Shown in pieces: positions 8,979-16,463 of a stretch of 41,599 nucleotides of DNA. Made by a program: the position numbers and the translations under genes. The number at the start of each line of letters is the position of its first letter. Positions within the stretch are counted from its first letter, which is position 1. The notes below the pieces were generated by a model. It made no database searches. It worked only from the letters and a program-made list of their open reading frames with translations, and was not told where the DNA came from. The DNA comes from Bacteroidota bacterium (lineage in GTDB: Bacteria; Bacteroidota; Rhodothermia; Rhodothermales; UBA10348), in contig JADFHF010000033.1 of assembly GCA_022567305.1 (NCBI GenBank), positions 1 through 41,599 of the forward strand, read 5' to 3'.

Positions 8979-10328
8979 TCATACGGAAGGGTTGCCGACT
9001 GGATGCATCCAGGCACCCTCGGCATAACGATTTTGCAGTCGGCCAGGTACGGAAAACAGTGTTTCCGTGTAAGAGTACGCTGATTGCACCCGGTCAATAA
9101 TTATTTCTATTCGGTCTTCGCTTGAGGCATGAAGCTCAAACAGTGGCTCTCCCGATGCAATAGAGTCGGACTCCTTCTTTAATAGATAGATCCCGGCGAG
9201 AGAATCGACCACGTCTTCCTTATGGCTTCTCCCGGCACCCAGGTCTACACACGCGCGTCCAATTTCGAGAGCATTAATAGTATCTACGTACGGACCGGAT
9301 TCTTCTGGCGCCGTTACAACGCGAACTACGCCCGAGTGACTCCTCAATTCTGGATGATCTAGCACAGAGGGATCGCCGCCTTGGGCTTCTACGAGTTTAA
9401 CGAGCATTTCAAAAGCATTTCCCGAAGATATCGCCCTCTGTGCCATTTCCGTTGCTGACTCGATCGTTTCGGCCCGCCCGCCCAGAACAATCATTTCGGC
9501 GGCTAGCATCAAGGTAACCTCCATAAGGTCAGGCACCGTCTCTCCCCGCAGGCATGCGATCGACTCCGCCATCTCAGGCCAGTTGCCCACTGCATGACCG
9601 AGCGGCGAAGACATGTCGGTCATCCAGGCAACCGTCTTCTTGCCGAAGCGCTCCCCGATAGCCACCAATTTCTCTGCCAGAGCCCGCGCCGAGGATTCTT
9701 CGCGCATGAACGCACCGGACCCACATTTTACATCCAGAACCAGCGCGTCGCATCCTTCTGCCAGTTTCTTGCTCATGATAGACGCGGCGATGAACGGGAT
9801 GAACTCGACCGTACCCGTCACGTCTCGCAGCGCGTACAGTTTTCGATCAGCCGGAGCGATATCCTGGGTTTGGCCGATCATCACGACGCCAATACGCTCC
9901 AACTGCTCTCGGTAAGCCCGTGTGTCCATGTTGGTCGAGAAACCGGGAATGGATTCGAGTTTGTCGAGTGTTCCGCCTGTGTGCCCCAATCCGCGACCGG
10001 ATATCATCGGAACAGGTACGCCGCAGGACGCCACCAAGGGGGCCAAGATCAAAGATACTTTGTCGCCGACTCCACCCGTCGAGTGTTTGTCGACTTTGAT
10101 GCCGGGCACGGAACTCAAGTCGATCCGCTCCCCCGAAGAGAGCATCGCATCCGTCAGCGCGACCGCTTCTTCGTCCGACATTCCATTCAGAAAGGAAGCC
10201 ATCAGAAACGCGCTCATCTGGTAATCCGGAACGTCACCGGCCGTGTACGAGTCAATCAGAGCATGAATCTGTGCAGGCTCAAGCTGCCCTCCGTCTCGCT
10301 TTGTCAATATGAGCTCGACTACATTCAT
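8979..10328 (-). CDS. deoA: Thymidine/pyrimidine-nucleoside phosphorylase
   Basis: Phosphorolysis of thymidine (and perhaps uridine) to the free base and (deoxy)ribose-1-phosphate, a cytosolic salvage step. The 449-residue protein carries the family signature SGRGLGHTGGTLDKLESIPG, the phosphate-binding KVDKHSTGGVGDKVSL, and DVTGTVEFIPFIAASIMSKK, plus the Lys-rich DVKCGSGAFM block. Sequence alone does not separate DeoA from the broader-specificity Pdp subgroup. The start ATG 10328 fits the family N-terminus (MNVVELILTKRDGGQL). It is upstream of pspA on the same strand with a 120-bp gap that could hold a pspA promoter. Confidence 0.93.
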   Translation of the reverse strand: MNVVELILTKRDGGQLEPAQIHALIDSYTAGDVPDYQMSAFLMASFLNGMSDEEAVALTDAMLSSGERIDLSSVPGIKVDKHSTGGVGDKVSLILAPLVASCGVPVPMISGRGLGHTGGTLDKLESIPGFSTNMDTRAYREQLERIGVVMIGQTQDIAPADRKLYALRDVTGTVEFIPFIAASIMSKKLAEGCDALVLDVKCGSGAFMREESSARALAEKLVAIGERFGKKTVAWMTDMSSPLGHAVGNWPEMAESIACLRGETVPDLMEVTLMLAAEMIVLGGRAETIESATEMAQRAISSGNAFEMLVKLVEAQGGDPSVLDHPELRSHSGVVRVVTAPEESGPYVDTINALEIGRACVDLGAGRSHKEDVVDSLAGIYLLKKESDSIASGEPLFELHASSEDRIEIIIDRVQSAYSYTETLFSVPGRLQNRYAEGAWMHPVGNPSV

Positions 10329-10802
10329 ATCGTCTTTACACTATGCAGTACAGGGATTTATGGATTATCGTATTTCCATGGGTAAAGGATATGGTAAAAG
10401 TTTTAATTTTGAATTTTCGATCCGACCGTAGCGCACAAATAGGAATGTACTTTTCCTGTTTCCGATTCCGTTATGGTTCATTCACGCCTCCCCTAATTCA
10501 CTTTCGTACCTATTGCAACCCAAGTTACACTTAGCCTCATACCCCGAACCCTCCGATTAAAAGTTAGCGGCTACCTATTCTGGATCAATCACTTCGGAGA
10601 AGAAAGAACAGATTTCGACAAAGCCAGGAATCTCATTACCGAATCCATTACCGAAATTATTCGCCCTCTCCCCTACCGTGAACGATCCGGAATTATGGTA
10701 AGTCTCGGCACTTTAAGCCAAGCGACTCGGTCACGCGAATCGGTGAATAGACGGTAACCCATTGTCTCTCCCGTCAGTCTAAAGAATAAATAGGATGGAA
10801 TC
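10329..10802. other. 474-bp intergenic region between divergent deoA and secreted-protein gene
   Basis: No convincing gene on either strand. It should hold the two divergent promoters, but I cannot place them with confidence. A short internal direct repeat (ATTACCGAA twice, spaced 12 bp, around 10637-10657) is visible. One + strand frame stays open from about 10498 to 10755 without any likely start codon and resembles nothing I know. Confidence 0.5.
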
Positions 10803-11441
10803 ATGCGTTTGTTATTAGGAACTTTCACGACGGTTCTGGTCATCGCATCAGTAGATCTCGTAAAGGCTCAAGAAGCTAATTCAACGGACTACGTCCGACT
10901 CGATGAAAACGAAGAGATACGTTTGGCACGGAGTGCAGCCCCCGATGTCGTTTCGGCTGAAGCCGCAATCTGGGTACTTCGTGACAACGGGTATGAAATC
11001 GCAATTCAAGGAACGAACGAAAACGAGTGCTTCGTCGCTCGTAGTATGCCAATGAGCCTGGAGCCCGTTTGCTACGATGCCGAAGCGGCGGCCACGATTC
11101 TCCCGTGGGAGTTCAGGTACTTCGAATTACGAACAGGCGGAAAATCGTCGGAAGAAAGAGAGCGCATCCTGGCTGAACTCATCGGATCTGGTGAGTTGCC
11201 GATGCCAAAGCGACCGGCAATGTCGTACATGATGTCGTCCGCGCAGCGTCTTTACGATTCGGAAAGCGGAAGAAGTGCGGGTAACTGGAAGCCCCATCTG
11301 ATGCTGTACATTCCGTATCTCACAGACAAGGATATGGGTCTTATGGAAAGTACACCCACATTGCAGGTAGCTCGTTCTGGAACTCCGGTAGCTTACCTTG
11401 TGATCGTGGTGCCCGAGTTTGTCGATCCTAAGCCGGAATAG
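10803..11441 (+). CDS. Exported protein of unknown function upstream of an ECF sigma factor
   Basis: 212 residues. The N-terminus is a Sec signal peptide (MRLLLGTFTTVLVIASVDL, likely cleavage after VKA before QE). The mature protein has no recognised domain. Two Cys (in NENECFVAR and LEPVCYD) could form a disulfide outside the cytoplasm. An AGGATGG (10792-10798) precedes the ATG. It ends 49 bp before the likely sigma-factor start, and the sigma and anti-sigma genes follow on the same strand, so the three may form one unit. The protein could be a target or an input of the sigma system; this is inference from position only. Confidence 0.75.
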   Translation: MRLLLGTFTTVLVIASVDLVKAQEANSTDYVRLDENEEIRLARSAAPDVVSAEAAIWVLRDNGYEIAIQGTNENECFVARSMPMSLEPVCYDAEAAATILPWEFRYFELRTGGKSSEERERILAELIGSGELPMPKRPAMSYMMSSAQRLYDSESGRSAGNWKPHLMLYIPYLTDKDMGLMESTPTLQVARSGTPVAYLVIVVPEFVDPKPE

Positions 11442-11490: not shown

Positions 11491-12075
11491 ATGAGGGTCG
11501 TCGACTCGAGGGGCCAGATCGATTCGAACTCCGACATAGAGCTCATGTCCCGGCTTCGCAGCGGAGATCTTCAGGCACTCGGAAGTCTGTTTCTGAGACA
11601 TCATGCGCGCGTGTACGAACTCTGTTTCCGTCTTTGCGGTGATAGCCAGACAGCGGATGATCTCGTTCAGGAGATCTTTCTTCGTGTACTCAGATACCGA
11701 AACAACTTTGCGGGAAAGGCGGCCTTCCCAACTTGGTTAAACCGGATTGCTCGAAACGTCTGTCTGGACCATTTTGCCAAGACAAAGCGAAGGCGGTCGG
11801 CCCAGTATCAGGCGCTGGAATCGCTCTCGGAGGAAACGGAATCGTCTATCGACTTCCCGGACGAGCGGCTGACCTTTCTCAATAAGGCTCTCATGGCGCT
11901 TCCTCTAGAGAAGCGAGAGGTTCTGATCCTTAGCCGCTACCATAGCCTCAGCTACGCGGAGATTGGAAAAGTCTGTAATTGCAGCGAATCAGCAGTGAAA
12001 GTTCGTGTTCATCGTGCGTTGCGTCAGTTACGGGATTTGTATTTCGAATTAGATCGAGAAAATGATGAAGTGTGA
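11491..12075 (+). CDS. ECF-type RNA polymerase sigma factor
   Basis: Alternative sigma-70-family factor of the extracytoplasmic-function class. Region 2 is clear (LFLRHHARVYELCFRL then DLVQEIFLRVLRY), and PTWLNRIARNVCLDHF marks the end of region 2. Region 4 is seen as LPLEKREVLILSRYHSL and then SYAEIGKVCNCSESAVKVRV, a helix-turn-helix for the -35 element. The ATG 11491 (MRVVDSRGQ) gives 194 residues, normal for ECF factors; an upstream TTG at 11419 would overlap the previous gene. The end overlaps the anti-sigma start by 14 bp, indicating translational coupling. Confidence 0.92.
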   Translation: MRVVDSRGQIDSNSDIELMSRLRSGDLQALGSLFLRHHARVYELCFRLCGDSQTADDLVQEIFLRVLRYRNNFAGKAAFPTWLNRIARNVCLDHFAKTKRRRSAQYQALESLSEETESSIDFPDERLTFLNKALMALPLEKREVLILSRYHSLSYAEIGKVCNCSESAVKVRVHRALRQLRDLYFELDRENDEV

Positions 12076-12763
12076 GTTAGCATCGGAACTGATCATTGAC
12101 CGCCTCACGGGAAACCTATCTGGTTCCGAGGAGAAAGAGCTGTCGGCTCATCTCGACAGTTGTGATTCCTGCCGGGAGGCGGCGAAACAACTTCGAACCA
12201 CATGGCTCGACCTGGGTCGTCTCTCCGTCCCGAGTCCACGTTCGGACGGCTTGAAGCGTCTCTCGGGGAGGTTATCGGTCGGCCGAATCGCTTCTCCTCG
12301 AAGAGTCGTAATCTCGCGAGTAGCAATTGCCGCTTCTCTAGGCGTAGCCATCCTAATCGGATACGTTACCGGACGGACTGCCTCCCCGCCTGCTAGTGAA
12401 TCCGTTGCAGGCTCAGAATTCATGTTCTTGCTGCGAGAGCCGGCCCAACCGCTCGAAGAGCTCGTAACAGCCGACATCACCGAAATCGTACGCGAATATC
12501 AGGATTGGGCAACTGATCTAGCAAGGGCTGGTCAGCTCATCGGAGCCCGAAAGCTCGCAGATGAACCGGATCTTTGGCTCGTCGGCACGTCTGGAAATCG
12601 AAGTGGCCCGAACCTGAACACGTGGCCGCGCATAAGCGGCTACTTTGTCGTCGCGGCCGCGGACCTAAATGCTGCGATTACGATCGCACGAAACAGCCCC
12701 CATCTCAAATACGGCGGAGCGATCGAGGTGCGATCGATTGACATGGTGGCAGGTGGCAATTAA
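12062..12763 (+). CDS. Transmembrane anti-sigma factor with extracytoplasmic YCII-like domain
   Basis: Residues 1-50 form a zinc-finger anti-sigma domain with the H-X3-C-X2-C motif (H30, C34, C37 in AHLDSCDSCREA), as in ZAS/RsrA-type factors. A single membrane helix follows at about 82-101 (VVISRVAIAASLGVAILIGY). The outer part (about 119-227) has the layout of a YCII-related (DGPF) domain. This shows as FMFLLRE, then EYQDWATDLARAGQLIGARK, then ISGYFVVAAADLNAAITIAR and a final GGAIEVRSI strand. The usual DGPF motif is replaced (SGPN). The start overlaps the sigma gene by 14 bp (ATGATG at 12062). It most likely holds the sigma factor inactive at the membrane; the ligand or signal is unknown. 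Confidence 0.87.
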   Translation: MMKCELASELIIDRLTGNLSGSEEKELSAHLDSCDSCREAAKQLRTTWLDLGRLSVPSPRSDGLKRLSGRLSVGRIASPRRVVISRVAIAASLGVAILIGYVTGRTASPPASESVAGSEFMFLLREPAQPLEELVTADITEIVREYQDWATDLARAGQLIGARKLADEPDLWLVGTSGNRSGPNLNTWPRISGYFVVAAADLNAAITIARNSPHLKYGGAIEVRSIDMVAGGN

Positions 12764-13024: not shown

Positions 13025-13255
13025 CTATTCCGCTTCAGTTTCCTCGGTTGCCTTTTTACCGTAACGACGGAGAAATTTCTCAACGCGTCCTGCGGTGTCC
13101 ACGTACTGTCGTCTGCCGGTGTAAAAGGGGTGGTTTGTTGAGTCTACTTCAGAAACGTAGTTCTCCCCTTTCATGGTCGAGCGAGTCGTAAACGTAGACC
13201 CGTCGGCAAGCGTCACCTTGATAAAATGATAATCGGGATGAATATCTTTCTTCAT
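13025..13255 (-). CDS. rpmE: 50S ribosomal protein bL31 (cysteine-free form)
   Basis: 76-residue large-subunit ribosomal protein. The start at ATG 13255 gives the canonical [19 protein letters not shown]. The conserved [20 protein letters not shown] is followed by a FLRRYGKK end and an acidic tail. An open frame continues 20 codons upstream but is not conserved-looking. The zinc-ribbon cysteines of classical bL31 are absent (VTLADG where VTCACG is usual, VDSTNHPF where CSNCHPF is usual). The protein therefore should not bind zinc, although its length is nearer the zinc-binding A type. Single-gene unit ending at the hairpin at 12971-13000. Confidence 0.94.
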
Positions 13256-13363
13256 AACAGACAAATAGTTCAAAAATCTATCAGATCCGGTCGTAGCCAA
13301 GCAATTTAAGAACAACCGCGAGAACTATCAATCGCCCTCCAGCTCATACGGCTTGATCCGGCA

Positions 13364-14569
13364 TTATTCTACTAACCAGGTATCGCCGGCGTGAAGCAAT
13401 TCTTCGATCGTCCCCTTCCCTACCTTTTTTATGACGGATTCGATCTGATTATGCAAAGTCTCCTCATACGTCTCACGCTGTTCTCGATAGAACACCCCAA
13501 ACGGTTGTGGAAGATCTTTACTCCAGAAAACGCGGCAAATGATCCCTGCTAAATCTCGATTGGTTTCGTCGTAAACCAGACAGTCGTCGACCGACCATTT
13601 GCCATTCGTGAGATCGATCGACTCAATCCGGAACCCGTCCAATCGCAGCCCTTTGTTTCCGTTGTCATACACAAGCGGTTTACCGTGTTCGATTTCAACC
13701 GTGCTCGCTGCTTTCGTGGCTTTTTCCGTGTACTCAAAGAAAGCACCATCATTAAAGATGTTGCAGTTCTGATATATCTCCAGAAACCCGGTCCCGGGAT
13801 GATCGTGAGCCTCGATAATCATCTCTCTCATGTGCTTTGGGTCGCGATCCATGGTTCGGGCCACAAATGTGGCCTCAGCACCCAGCACGAGAGCGATTGG
13901 ATTGAACGGATGATCGATCGAGCCAAAGGGCGTACTTTTGGTAATCTTTCCGACTTCTGACGTCGGGCTGTACTGCCCTTTTGTGAGCCCGTAAATCTGA
14001 TTGTTAAACATCAGGATCTGCAGATTCACGTTGCGCCGCATCAGGTGAATGATATGATTCCCGCCTATGGAAAGACTGTCCCCGTCTCCCGTCACAATCC
14101 AGACATCCAGTTCCGGCCGACTGGCTTTGAGTCCGGTAGCGATGGTCGGGGCGCGTCCATGTATGGAATGCATACCATACGTCTTCATGTAGTACGGAAA
14201 CCGACTTGAACAACCGATTCCACTGATGAAGACGACGTTTTCCTTGGGGACATCAAACTCGGGCATCAAACGCTGAACCGTCGCCAAAACGACGTAATCA
14301 CCGCAACCTGGGCACCACCTTACATCCTGATCGGAAGTAAAATCGGCCCGCGTCAGTTTTGATGGGCCCTCATCGATCACCGGCAGCGACACCGGCTCTC
14401 CACTACCCGGCTCTGCAGGTCTTTTCCCGGCAGGCTTTTTCATTCCCGGTGGCATCTTTGGCAAAGCCTTATCGGCAGGCGGCATCTTCGATGTGCTGGC
14501 CTTTATTCCAGGCGGCAATTGGGGCTTGCGCCCCGGTGGCTTCGAAGAGGGTCTGTCTTTATTTGACAT
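13364..14569 (-). CDS. korB: 2-oxoacid:ferredoxin oxidoreductase, beta subunit (KorB type)
   Basis: Thiamine-diphosphate-binding subunit of a 2-oxoacid (probably 2-oxoglutarate):ferredoxin oxidoreductase. The catalytic region begins at about residue 80 with VRWCPGCGDYVVL. It continues through GIGCSSRFPYYM and SIHGRAPTIATGLK to the Mg-ThDP motif VTGDGDSLSIGGNH followed by FNNQIYGLTKGQYSPTS. Ahead of it is a roughly 65-residue Pro/Lys-rich low-complexity extension with repeated PPG(M/I)K and KMPP units that standard KorB proteins lack. ATG 14569 (MSNKDRPSS) is the likely start; a TTG at 14617 would overlap korA. It follows korA by 40 bp and should be co-transcribed with it. Confidence 0.93.
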   Translation of the reverse strand: MSNKDRPSSKPPGRKPQLPPGIKASTSKMPPADKALPKMPPGMKKPAGKRPAEPGSGEPVSLPVIDEGPSKLTRADFTSDQDVRWCPGCGDYVVLATVQRLMPEFDVPKENVVFISGIGCSSRFPYYMKTYGMHSIHGRAPTIATGLKASRPELDVWIVTGDGDSLSIGGNHIIHLMRRNVNLQILMFNNQIYGLTKGQYSPTSEVGKITKSTPFGSIDHPFNPIALVLGAEATFVARTMDRDPKHMREMIIEAHDHPGTGFLEIYQNCNIFNDGAFFEYTEKATKAASTVEIEHGKPLVYDNGNKGLRLDGFRIESIDLTNGKWSVDDCLVYDETNRDLAGIICRVFWSKDLPQPFGVFYREQRETYEETLHNQIESVIKKVGKGTIEELLHAGDTWLVE

Positions 14570-14609
14570 GGTGTTCTTGTCTCTCTTAATACTCTCGGAT
14601 TCGTGTTGC

Positions 14610-16463
14610 CTAGCCAATCATCTCGGAAATCTTTTCTGAAATCTCACTCGCCCGGAAGGGCATACCTTGCACTTTATTCAACGCAGTCATGTCCAGAAGG
14701 AAACGGTCTCGAAGAATTTTGACCAATTGCCCGTTATTGAGCTCGGGTACCAACCACTTCTTATAGCGTGCAGCGATCTCTGCGAGTTCGTCCGTCAGCG
14801 GATTAAGAAATCGAAGATGCACGGCTCCGACGGAGAGTCCTCCATTCCGAGCCTTCGCTACGGCCGCTTCAATCGATCCCTTGGTTGATCCCCATCCAAT
14901 AATGAGAAGATCGCCAGAGTCTTCTCCAAAAATCTTTAGTGGTGTATGTTCGGCTTTAACCCGCTCGACTTTCTCAGCCCGTAAATCTGTCATGAGCTGA
15001 TGATTATCCGGCTCGTAGGACACGTTTCCGGAAATATTCTCCTTCTCAAGCCCACCGATACGATGTTCCAAGCCGGGTGTCCCGGGTGTTGCCCACGGTC
15101 TGGCCTGTGTTTGTTCGTCACGCAGATACGGAAGGAAGGCGTCCTCCCCATTCTCAGAGCTCTTCCGCCTAGCGGCAAACTTCACGTCGAAATCCGGTAG
15201 AGAGTCCGCCTCTGGAATCAGCCAAGGTTGGGCTCCATTGGCCAGGTAGCCATCTACGAGAAGAATGACGGGAGTCATATACTTGACCGCAATCCGACAC
15301 GCTTCGTATGCCGTCTCAAAACAGTCTCCCGGTGTGCTGGACGCGATGACCGGTAAAGGCGAATCGCCGTTTCTTCCGTACATCGCCTGGAGCAGGTCGC
15401 TCTGTTCGGTTTTGGTCGGTAGACCCGTTGATGGCCCACCCCGCATGACGTTGATGATGACGAGCGGAAGCTCAGCGATCAAGGCCAGGTTGGCTGCTTC
15501 GGTTTTTAAGGCCAGCCCCGGACCCGACGTACCTGTCACGCCCAAATTTCCACCAAAACTCGCACCAATGGCTGCTCCGATCGCCGCTATTTCATCTTCG
15601 GTCTGCATCGTGATGACGCCGTAGTTTTTATAGCGACTCAGTGCGTGCAAAAGATCCGAGGCCGGAGTGATCGGGTATGATCCATAAAAAATATTGAGCC
15701 CGCTTTTCTGGCTCGCCGCGACCAAGCCCATCGCCAGAGCCGTTATTCCTTGGATCGCTCGATATTTTCCGGGAGATAGGTCTGCCGGATTGACCTCGTA
15801 GCGGAATGCAAACTGCTCGGTGGTTTCGCCAAAATGATATCCTTTCCGGAGTAGCAGCAGGTTGGCATTCTTGATGGGCTCATTCTTTTCGAACTTCGTA
15901 GAAAGCCAGTCCTCCGCCGGCTTGATGGGTCGCGAGTACATCCAGAGCGCGAGCCCCAGAGCAAACATATTTTTTGATCGATCGATCTCCTTGCGAGTGA
16001 GATCCGAGTCTGCCAATGTCTCGCGTGTCAAACGTGTAAGCTCAACCGAGATCACGCGATATTTATCCAGAGACCCGTCTTCGAGCGGGTTCGATTCGAT
16101 GTTCGCCAGTTTAAAACCCTTTTGATTGAAGGAATTGATGTTCACGAGGATGGTGCCGCCAATCCGAACGCGTTCCAGATTTACGACAAGAGCAGCCGGG
16201 TTCATCGCTACCAACAAATCGACCTCGTCACCCGGTGTTCGGACGTCTGTAGACCCGAATTTCAACTGGTAGCCACTGACACCATACGTGGTCCCGGCCG
16301 GCGCACGGATTTCAGCCGGAAAGTCCGGAAGCGTTGCCAGATCGTTCATGGCATGGGCCGTCGCCAACGTAAACTGCGTCCCAGCCACCTGCATTCCGTC
16401 ACCCGAATCCCCGGCGAATAGAACCGTTGCTTCTGATATGGTCTCTACAGCTTTATTTGACAT
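14610..16463 (-). CDS. korA: 2-oxoacid:ferredoxin oxidoreductase, fused gamma-alpha subunit (KorA type)
   Basis: 617 residues from ATG 16463 (MSNKAVETIS); a GTG at 16475 would add four. The N-terminal gamma domain (about 10-190) starts with TVLFAGDSGDGMQVAGTQF. The alpha/pyrimidine-binding domain (about 225-560) has IFYGSYPITPASDLLHAL, then TQTEDEIAAIGAAIGASF with M in place of the first T. GVTGTSGPGLALKTEAANLA and VINVMRGGPSTGLPTKTEQS follow. This fused layout is typical of the two-subunit KorAB enzymes that reversibly link 2-oxoglutarate decarboxylation to ferredoxin. No ferredoxin or delta subunit is encoded beside it. sucA is also present in the window, so the enzyme probably complements the classical dehydrogenase. 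Confidence 0.94.
   Translation of the reverse strand: MSNKAVETISEATVLFAGDSGDGMQVAGTQFTLATAHAMNDLATLPDFPAEIRAPAGTTYGVSGYQLKFGSTDVRTPGDEVDLLVAMNPAALVVNLERVRIGGTILVNINSFNQKGFKLANIESNPLEDGSLDKYRVISVELTRLTRETLADSDLTRKEIDRSKNMFALGLALWMYSRPIKPAEDWLSTKFEKNEPIKNANLLLLRKGYHFGETTEQFAFRYEVNPADLSPGKYRAIQGITALAMGLVAASQKSGLNIFYGSYPITPASDLLHALSRYKNYGVITMQTEDEIAAIGAAIGASFGGNLGVTGTSGPGLALKTEAANLALIAELPLVIINVMRGGPSTGLPTKTEQSDLLQAMYGRNGDSPLPVIASSTPGDCFETAYEACRIAVKYMTPVILLVDGYLANGAQPWLIPEADSLPDFDVKFAARRKSSENGEDAFLPYLRDEQTQARPWATPGTPGLEHRIGGLEKENISGNVSYEPDNHQLMTDLRAEKVERVKAEHTPLKIFGEDSGDLLIIGWGSTKGSIEAAVAKARNGGLSVGAVHLRFLNPLTDELAEIAARYKKWLVPELNNGQLVKILRDRFLLDMTALNKVQGMPFRASEISEKISEMIG

Follow-up and report, generated by a model that had tools for sequence, protein, structure and literature searches.

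The genes described here lie in a window of 41,599 nt, by which we mean the whole stretch of DNA that was analysed. An ECF sigma factor gene occupies positions 11491–12075 (+) and encodes a protein of 194 aa with the sigma2 and sigma4 regions. It is followed by the gene for an anti-sigma factor of 233 aa (12062–12763, +), whose start at 12062 overlaps the sigma stop at 12075; translation may begin at a second ATG at 12065. The anti-sigma factor consists of a zf-HC2 zinc-binding domain (residues 4–38, 12071–12175, +), a single membrane helix (residues 83–103, 12308–12370, +) and a YCII domain without the DGPF motif (residues 117–228, 12410–12745, +), which is placed outside the membrane. Upstream of the pair is a gene for a secreted protein of 212 aa (10803–11441, +) with a signal peptide and the conserved cysteines C76 and C90. 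It belongs to an unnamed family, and we refer to it as “up.” A promoter-like site matching the motif GTAACC-N17-GTCTAA (10754–10782, +), the probable ECF promoter of the cassette, ends 20 bases 5′ of this gene. Both the site and up lie beyond the coordinates of an earlier sequence-only reading, and they seem to belong with the sigma/anti-sigma unit. The cassette is flanked by housekeeping-type genes on the opposite strand. Judged by eye, we take 8979–10328 (−) to be a thymidine phosphorylase gene, and 13025–14617 (−) presumably encodes ribosomal protein L31 and a subunit of a 2-oxoacid:ferredoxin oxidoreductase.

The sigma factor was identified with Pfam and NCBIfam profiles. Its Pfam scores of 70.5 bits for Sigma70_r2 and 56.3 bits for Sigma70_r4_2 are far above cut-off, and with sigma2 and sigma4 contained in about 200 residues it has the makeup of an ECF sigma factor. 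The protein terminates just past region 4, with no ECF42-type TPR-rich extension, and shares 47% identity with the sigma factor of the closest related cassette, L141. In the anti-sigma factor the Pfam profile zf-HC2 scored 29.1 bits against a cut-off of 22.2, with the ligand pattern Hx3Cx2C formed by H30, C34 and C37; C4 is present too. The three ligands are invariant in L141, L169 and L165, and in L141 zf-HC2 and YCII are likewise both above cut-off. This bears out the ECF sigma/anti-sigma pair with a zinc finger that had been read from the sequence. The AlphaFold model shows an N-terminal bundle of three helices (residues 4–15, 21–33 and 35–51) and a low-confidence fourth helix (61–68). Superposition on RsiW (5wuq_C) gave a VIA Z of 7.3 over 64 residues at 4.1 Å, which is below the trustworthy level. 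By domain content the protein is a zinc-binding class I anti-sigma factor, and its gene overlaps that of the adjacent ECF sigma factor, which it would bind and inhibit.

The single membrane helix described in the sequence-only reading is present in the AlphaFold model, and it coincides with a 19-residue hydropathy peak of 2.25; the peak is at least 1.15 in all 34 members of the group described below. The topology was assessed by the charge rule. Within 15 residues of the window helix there are four Arg/Lys on the inner (N-terminal) side and one on the outer side, and a positive-inside bias is seen in 29 of the 34 members (p 5e-6). This charge bias supports a position of the YCII domain on the far side of the membrane. 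The layout proposed earlier therefore stands, since positive charge is concentrated on the N-terminal side of the helix, both in the window and in those 29 members; its topology rests on the charge rule.

The outer part had been proposed to resemble YCII without the DGPF motif, and profile and structure searches agree with this. PF03795 matched residues 140–226 with 27.5 bits against a curated cut-off of 24 (29.3 bits for the outer part alone), and 12 of 13 relatives matched the family at E 0.01. In the AlphaFold model residues 118–225 form a β-α-β-β-α-β arrangement, ferredoxin-like as in PA1349/YciI; most of the core has a pLDDT above 85, and a loop around residues 171–190 has 67–68. The best solved structure for residues 116–232 was that of PA1349 (1s7i; Foldseek E 3.4e-6; VIA Z 13.1 and rmsd 3.4 Å over 113 residues), followed by ClcF (3zo7, VIA Z 11.2), HI0828/YciI (1mwq, 10.5) and TftG (4lbp, 9.1). 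Unrelated ferredoxin-like proteins reached VIA Z values of 7–8, well below that of 1s7i, and the search thus gave the YCII fold and not a different one. 1s7i was also found by sequence alone with a profile of 13 relatives (E 5.6e-11). The DGPF/DGPY motif was found neither in the window domain nor in any of the 35 membrane-anchored domains, whereas the motif or a one-letter variant of it occurs in 30 of 30 cytosolic comparison domains. The sole histidine of the window domain is H214, which lies within a PHLKYGG stretch where the histidine is conserved; there is none in the first helix. No second YCII domain besides the exported one was found in the window's genome, which has a completeness of 95.6%.

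Known systems share some of these traits. For ECF42 sigma factors YCII neighbour proteins have been reported, and in Caulobacter vibrioides Q9A8M4 YCII is fused to an ECF sigma factor (PMC8999054, PMC7641849). The window cassette resembles ECF42 in the genetic linkage of an ECF sigma gene to YCII (PMC8999054; loci L016–L018, L049 and L054). However, in ECF42 systems YCII stands as a protein of its own, with DGPF/Y, and the sigma factor has a TPR-rich C-terminal extension of ∼200 residues. In the window it is the anti-sigma factor in the membrane that carries YCII, which is apparently exported and without DGPF, and the sigma factor lacks the extension. In Q9A8M4, too, YCII is part of an ECF signalling protein, though of the sigma factor itself rather than the anti-sigma factor, and its export is not described (PMC8999054). 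With RsiW-type class I factors (ZAS, zf-HC2) the window protein shares Hx3Cx2C, one membrane helix and an overlapping sigma gene, and it may also share a fourth helix ahead of the membrane helix; it differs in that its outer domain is YCII, none such being described in the papers searched. PA1349, HI0828/YciI, TftG and ClcF have the fold in common with the window domain but are stand-alone proteins, and TftG is an enzyme that needs a His-Asp dyad (PMC7641849), which was not recognised in the sequence of the window domain. We came across no anti-sigma factor with an exported YCII in the open-access literature searched. To our knowledge, the YCII module has otherwise been described only intracellularly.

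When the single window protein was used as query against 84,980 species genomes, no match was obtained; a four-row alignment was needed as query. Same-order relatives, together with a scan of named genomes using this alignment, gave pairs in Fulvivirga (Bacteroidota), Zixibacteria, Ignavibacteria and Rhodothermia, as well as in an Acidobacterium, a Planctomycete and Gemmatimonadota, and many pairs were added from 298 genomes around one Gemmatimonadota genome. After removal of duplicates there were 33 further pairs of a sigma gene and a membrane-YCII gene (32 passing the helix threshold and L141, whose helix is marginally under it), that is 34 counting the window, from Bacteroidota, Gemmatimonadota, Acidobacteriota, Ignavibacteriota, Zixibacteria and Planctomycetota. 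Most relatives are MAGs. In the related pairs the start codon of the membrane-YCII gene usually overlaps the sigma stop. The 33 relatives rule out a one-off layout or an assembly artefact. A profile search of 394 Bacteroidota genomes returned three strong full-length matches (the window, G001 and G031), and further Bacteroidota cases came from a family search (G018) and from the four-row alignment (Fulvivirga). The layout is thus rare in Bacteroidota as sampled. Its earlier description as unusual needs to be qualified, since the layout recurs in 34 gene pairs including that of the window, most of the relatives having no zinc finger.

Of the 35 anchored YCII domains in a 66-domain tree, 30 fell on one side together with one exported (signal-peptide) YCII, with weak support (77/93), and five anchored members (L044, L046, L048, L057 and L060) grouped with cytosolic YCII. 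The membrane-YCII domains may have had a single origin or more than one. The window, L141 and L169 cluster together (support 90/84); in each of them the anti-sigma factor combines zf-HC2 with a membrane helix and YCII, and an up gene is present. In most of the others the N-terminus is short, and the sequence ahead of the helix follows a pattern like PPxxLExxVxxxLxxxGLL; in L063, L064, L137 and L151 the N-terminus is longer but without zinc ligands. As helix 4 is the one that contacts sigma2 in class I anti-sigma factors (PMC7406223), we suggest, without proof, that the short segment could correspond to helix 4 alone. With this short N-terminus and no zinc finger, sigma binding is less certain for most relatives than for the window protein.

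The secreted protein up had no Pfam or NCBIfam match, and six of its relatives had no significant one either. Its model is confident (pLDDT 84), and in the PDB no Foldseek match was found under E 0.06 and VIA Z did not exceed 3.4; no known fold was recognised, a weak fold search of this kind not demonstrating a new fold. Of the 33 pairs, 19 have a homologue of up no more than 4 kb away, compared with 0 of 22 other YCII genes, which are mostly cytosolic (Fisher p 2.9e-6). The position of the homologue relative to the pair varies between upstream, downstream and divergent. No up gene was found near the other 14 of the 33 related pairs. Some of the cassettes without up adjoin another exported protein. 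In the acidobacterial locus L056 (3861–5435, +) a signal-peptide YCII gene is followed by the sigma gene and the membrane-YCII gene, with a GCAACC-N17-CACTCA site of its own. Signal-peptide proteins of the glyoxalase superfamily are encoded directly 3′ of the membrane-YCII gene in two phyla (L057, 4350–5564, and L062, 4281–5156, both +), and an exported DUF6265 protein is found in the same place in Fulvivirga kasyanovii (L044, 4409–4891, +), the named strain in which we saw the layout. The up family also occurs solitarily, without sigma factor or YCII, and the window's genome has three more copies, which have no sigma neighbours in the stretches read.

The window site GTAACC-N17-GTCTAA is the single match in the 3.76 Mb genome, and genome G575 likewise has a single copy of this variant, which precedes the closest related cassette, L141. 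It differs at both boxes from the cross-phylum form GCAACC-N16/17-CACTCA, which is common to the upstream regions of many related cassettes and was recognised by reading those regions. A generic ECF promoter pattern had not been enriched, with 1 of 18 observed where 0.7 was expected. The strict form GCAACC-N16/17-CACTCA occurs 11 times in 290 kb of membrane-YCII loci, nine times with a spacing of 17 and twice with 16, and it was absent there at all other spacings from 8 to 26. It was found neither in 232 kb of cytosolic-YCII loci nor in Markov-resampled sequence. These local counts are partly circular, as the motif was discovered in the same loci, and better evidence comes from the constancy of the spacing, from the controls and from the rarity of the motif across genomes: 12 whole genomes contain 14 strict matches, of which 10 are at cassettes, compared with four matches of a reversed control pattern.

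We read the overlapping genes, the three domains, the upstream secreted-protein gene and the promoter-like site, all of which are seen in the sequence or the model, as probably forming a self-contained, self-controlling envelope-signalling cassette. From these parts we infer the signal, the sigma binding, the release and the promoter use as follows. The N-terminal domain would hold the sigma factor at the inner membrane, while the exported YCII domain, the presumed sensor, would receive an envelope signal, which might be a small molecule or a partner protein, or might lie in an altered dimer state. The sigma factor would then be freed, directly or via regulated proteolysis, and would use GTAACC-N17-GTCTAA to transcribe the operon that encodes it, so that the levels of the secreted protein, the sigma factor and the anti-sigma factor would rise together. 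Of these, the secreted protein would be the main response product, with a possible feedback on the YCII domain as well. Release through regulated proteolysis is possible; M50 (RseP-type) proteases are present, but as they are found in every control genome they say little on this point.

A different assignment of roles makes the secreted protein the true receiver or carrier of the signal and YCII its docking site, so that its binding or loss would free the sigma factor, much as RseB acts for RseA. This is the main rival to our reading, although we consider it rather unlikely. It would fit the tie between up and the membrane-YCII pair in several gene orders, and the other exported proteins often found beside cassettes without up (L056, L057, L062 and L044). 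The shared promoter is explained equally well by up as a product, however, and relatives of up are also found solitarily, three of them in the window's genome. The zinc-binding domain could instead be a redox or zinc sensor, with the outer YCII merely a dimeriser or stabiliser. C4, H30, C34 and C37 do match a zinc-binding pattern, one that RsrA and other anti-sigma factors responding to redox state are known to have, but most relatives retain the helix and YCII without the zinc motif, and we find this reading improbable.

The exported YCII might also be an enzyme acting on an envelope or extracellular compound, with its chemistry central to the system. The YCII family does include enzymes (TftG), the structural neighbours include ClcF, and the histidine in PHLKYGG is conserved. 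TftG needs a His-Asp dyad (PMC7641849), though, and the window domain has the single histidine H214 and none in its first helix, while DGPF/Y has been lost in 35 of 35 membrane-anchored members; we therefore give an enzymatic role little credence. Least credible of all is that the hydrophobic stretch does not cross the membrane, or that the C-terminus is cytosolic, in which case the protein would be a YCII partner of the ordinary cytosolic type for its ECF sigma factor. The known YCII partners, it is true, are separate neighbours taken as cytosolic (PMC8999054). Against this stand the hydropathy of the helix and the positive-inside bias across the 34 members, and the anchored set, without DGPF/Y, is sharply unlike cytosolic YCII.

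Beyond the window, we hold with about equal belief and doubt that the cassettes represent a class of extracytoplasmic ECF systems in at least six phyla. This class would use a DGPF-less membrane YCII as receiver and one conserved promoter, GCAACC-N17-CACTCA, with one secreted protein as its main target, mostly of the unnamed family without a recognised fold. It would be the exported counterpart of the cytosolic YCII/ECF42 network, with many anti-sigma factors having only a short helix-4-like cytosolic segment. In a great many bacteria YCII proteins are encoded next to ECF sigma factors. In the cassette the domain forms part of the anti-sigma factor itself and lies on the outer side, and its part in signal reception is therefore directly testable with one promoter, one sigma gene and one anti-sigma gene. 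Through the cassette, an unnamed family of secreted proteins is also linked with a regulator and a promoter that are both defined. Accompanied in several phyla by its own promoter and by an unstudied secreted protein, the outer YCII would be a new, testable kind of envelope sensor.

Individual loci showed further variation in the up gene and the promoter-like site. In genome G001 the up gene is broken by an in-frame stop, two adjacent frames matching consecutive parts of the profile (L012, 3623–4456, −), which reflects either decay or a sequencing error; a promoter-like site was not found at this locus. In L063 (1644–3557, −) the up domain continues in frame into a C-terminal part, which by eye we take to be a DinB-type domain. 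A second promoter-like site in the Planctomycete G468 lies ahead of a small secreted protein (L187, 1501–2099, +), which by eye presumably resembles DUF1579 and is a possible further regulon member. One strict match in G592 precedes a cupin-like gene (L180). Genome G470 has five copies of the up family, and in L162 (14585–14660, both strands) two divergent up-family genes of this genome each have their own site, about 40 bases apart.
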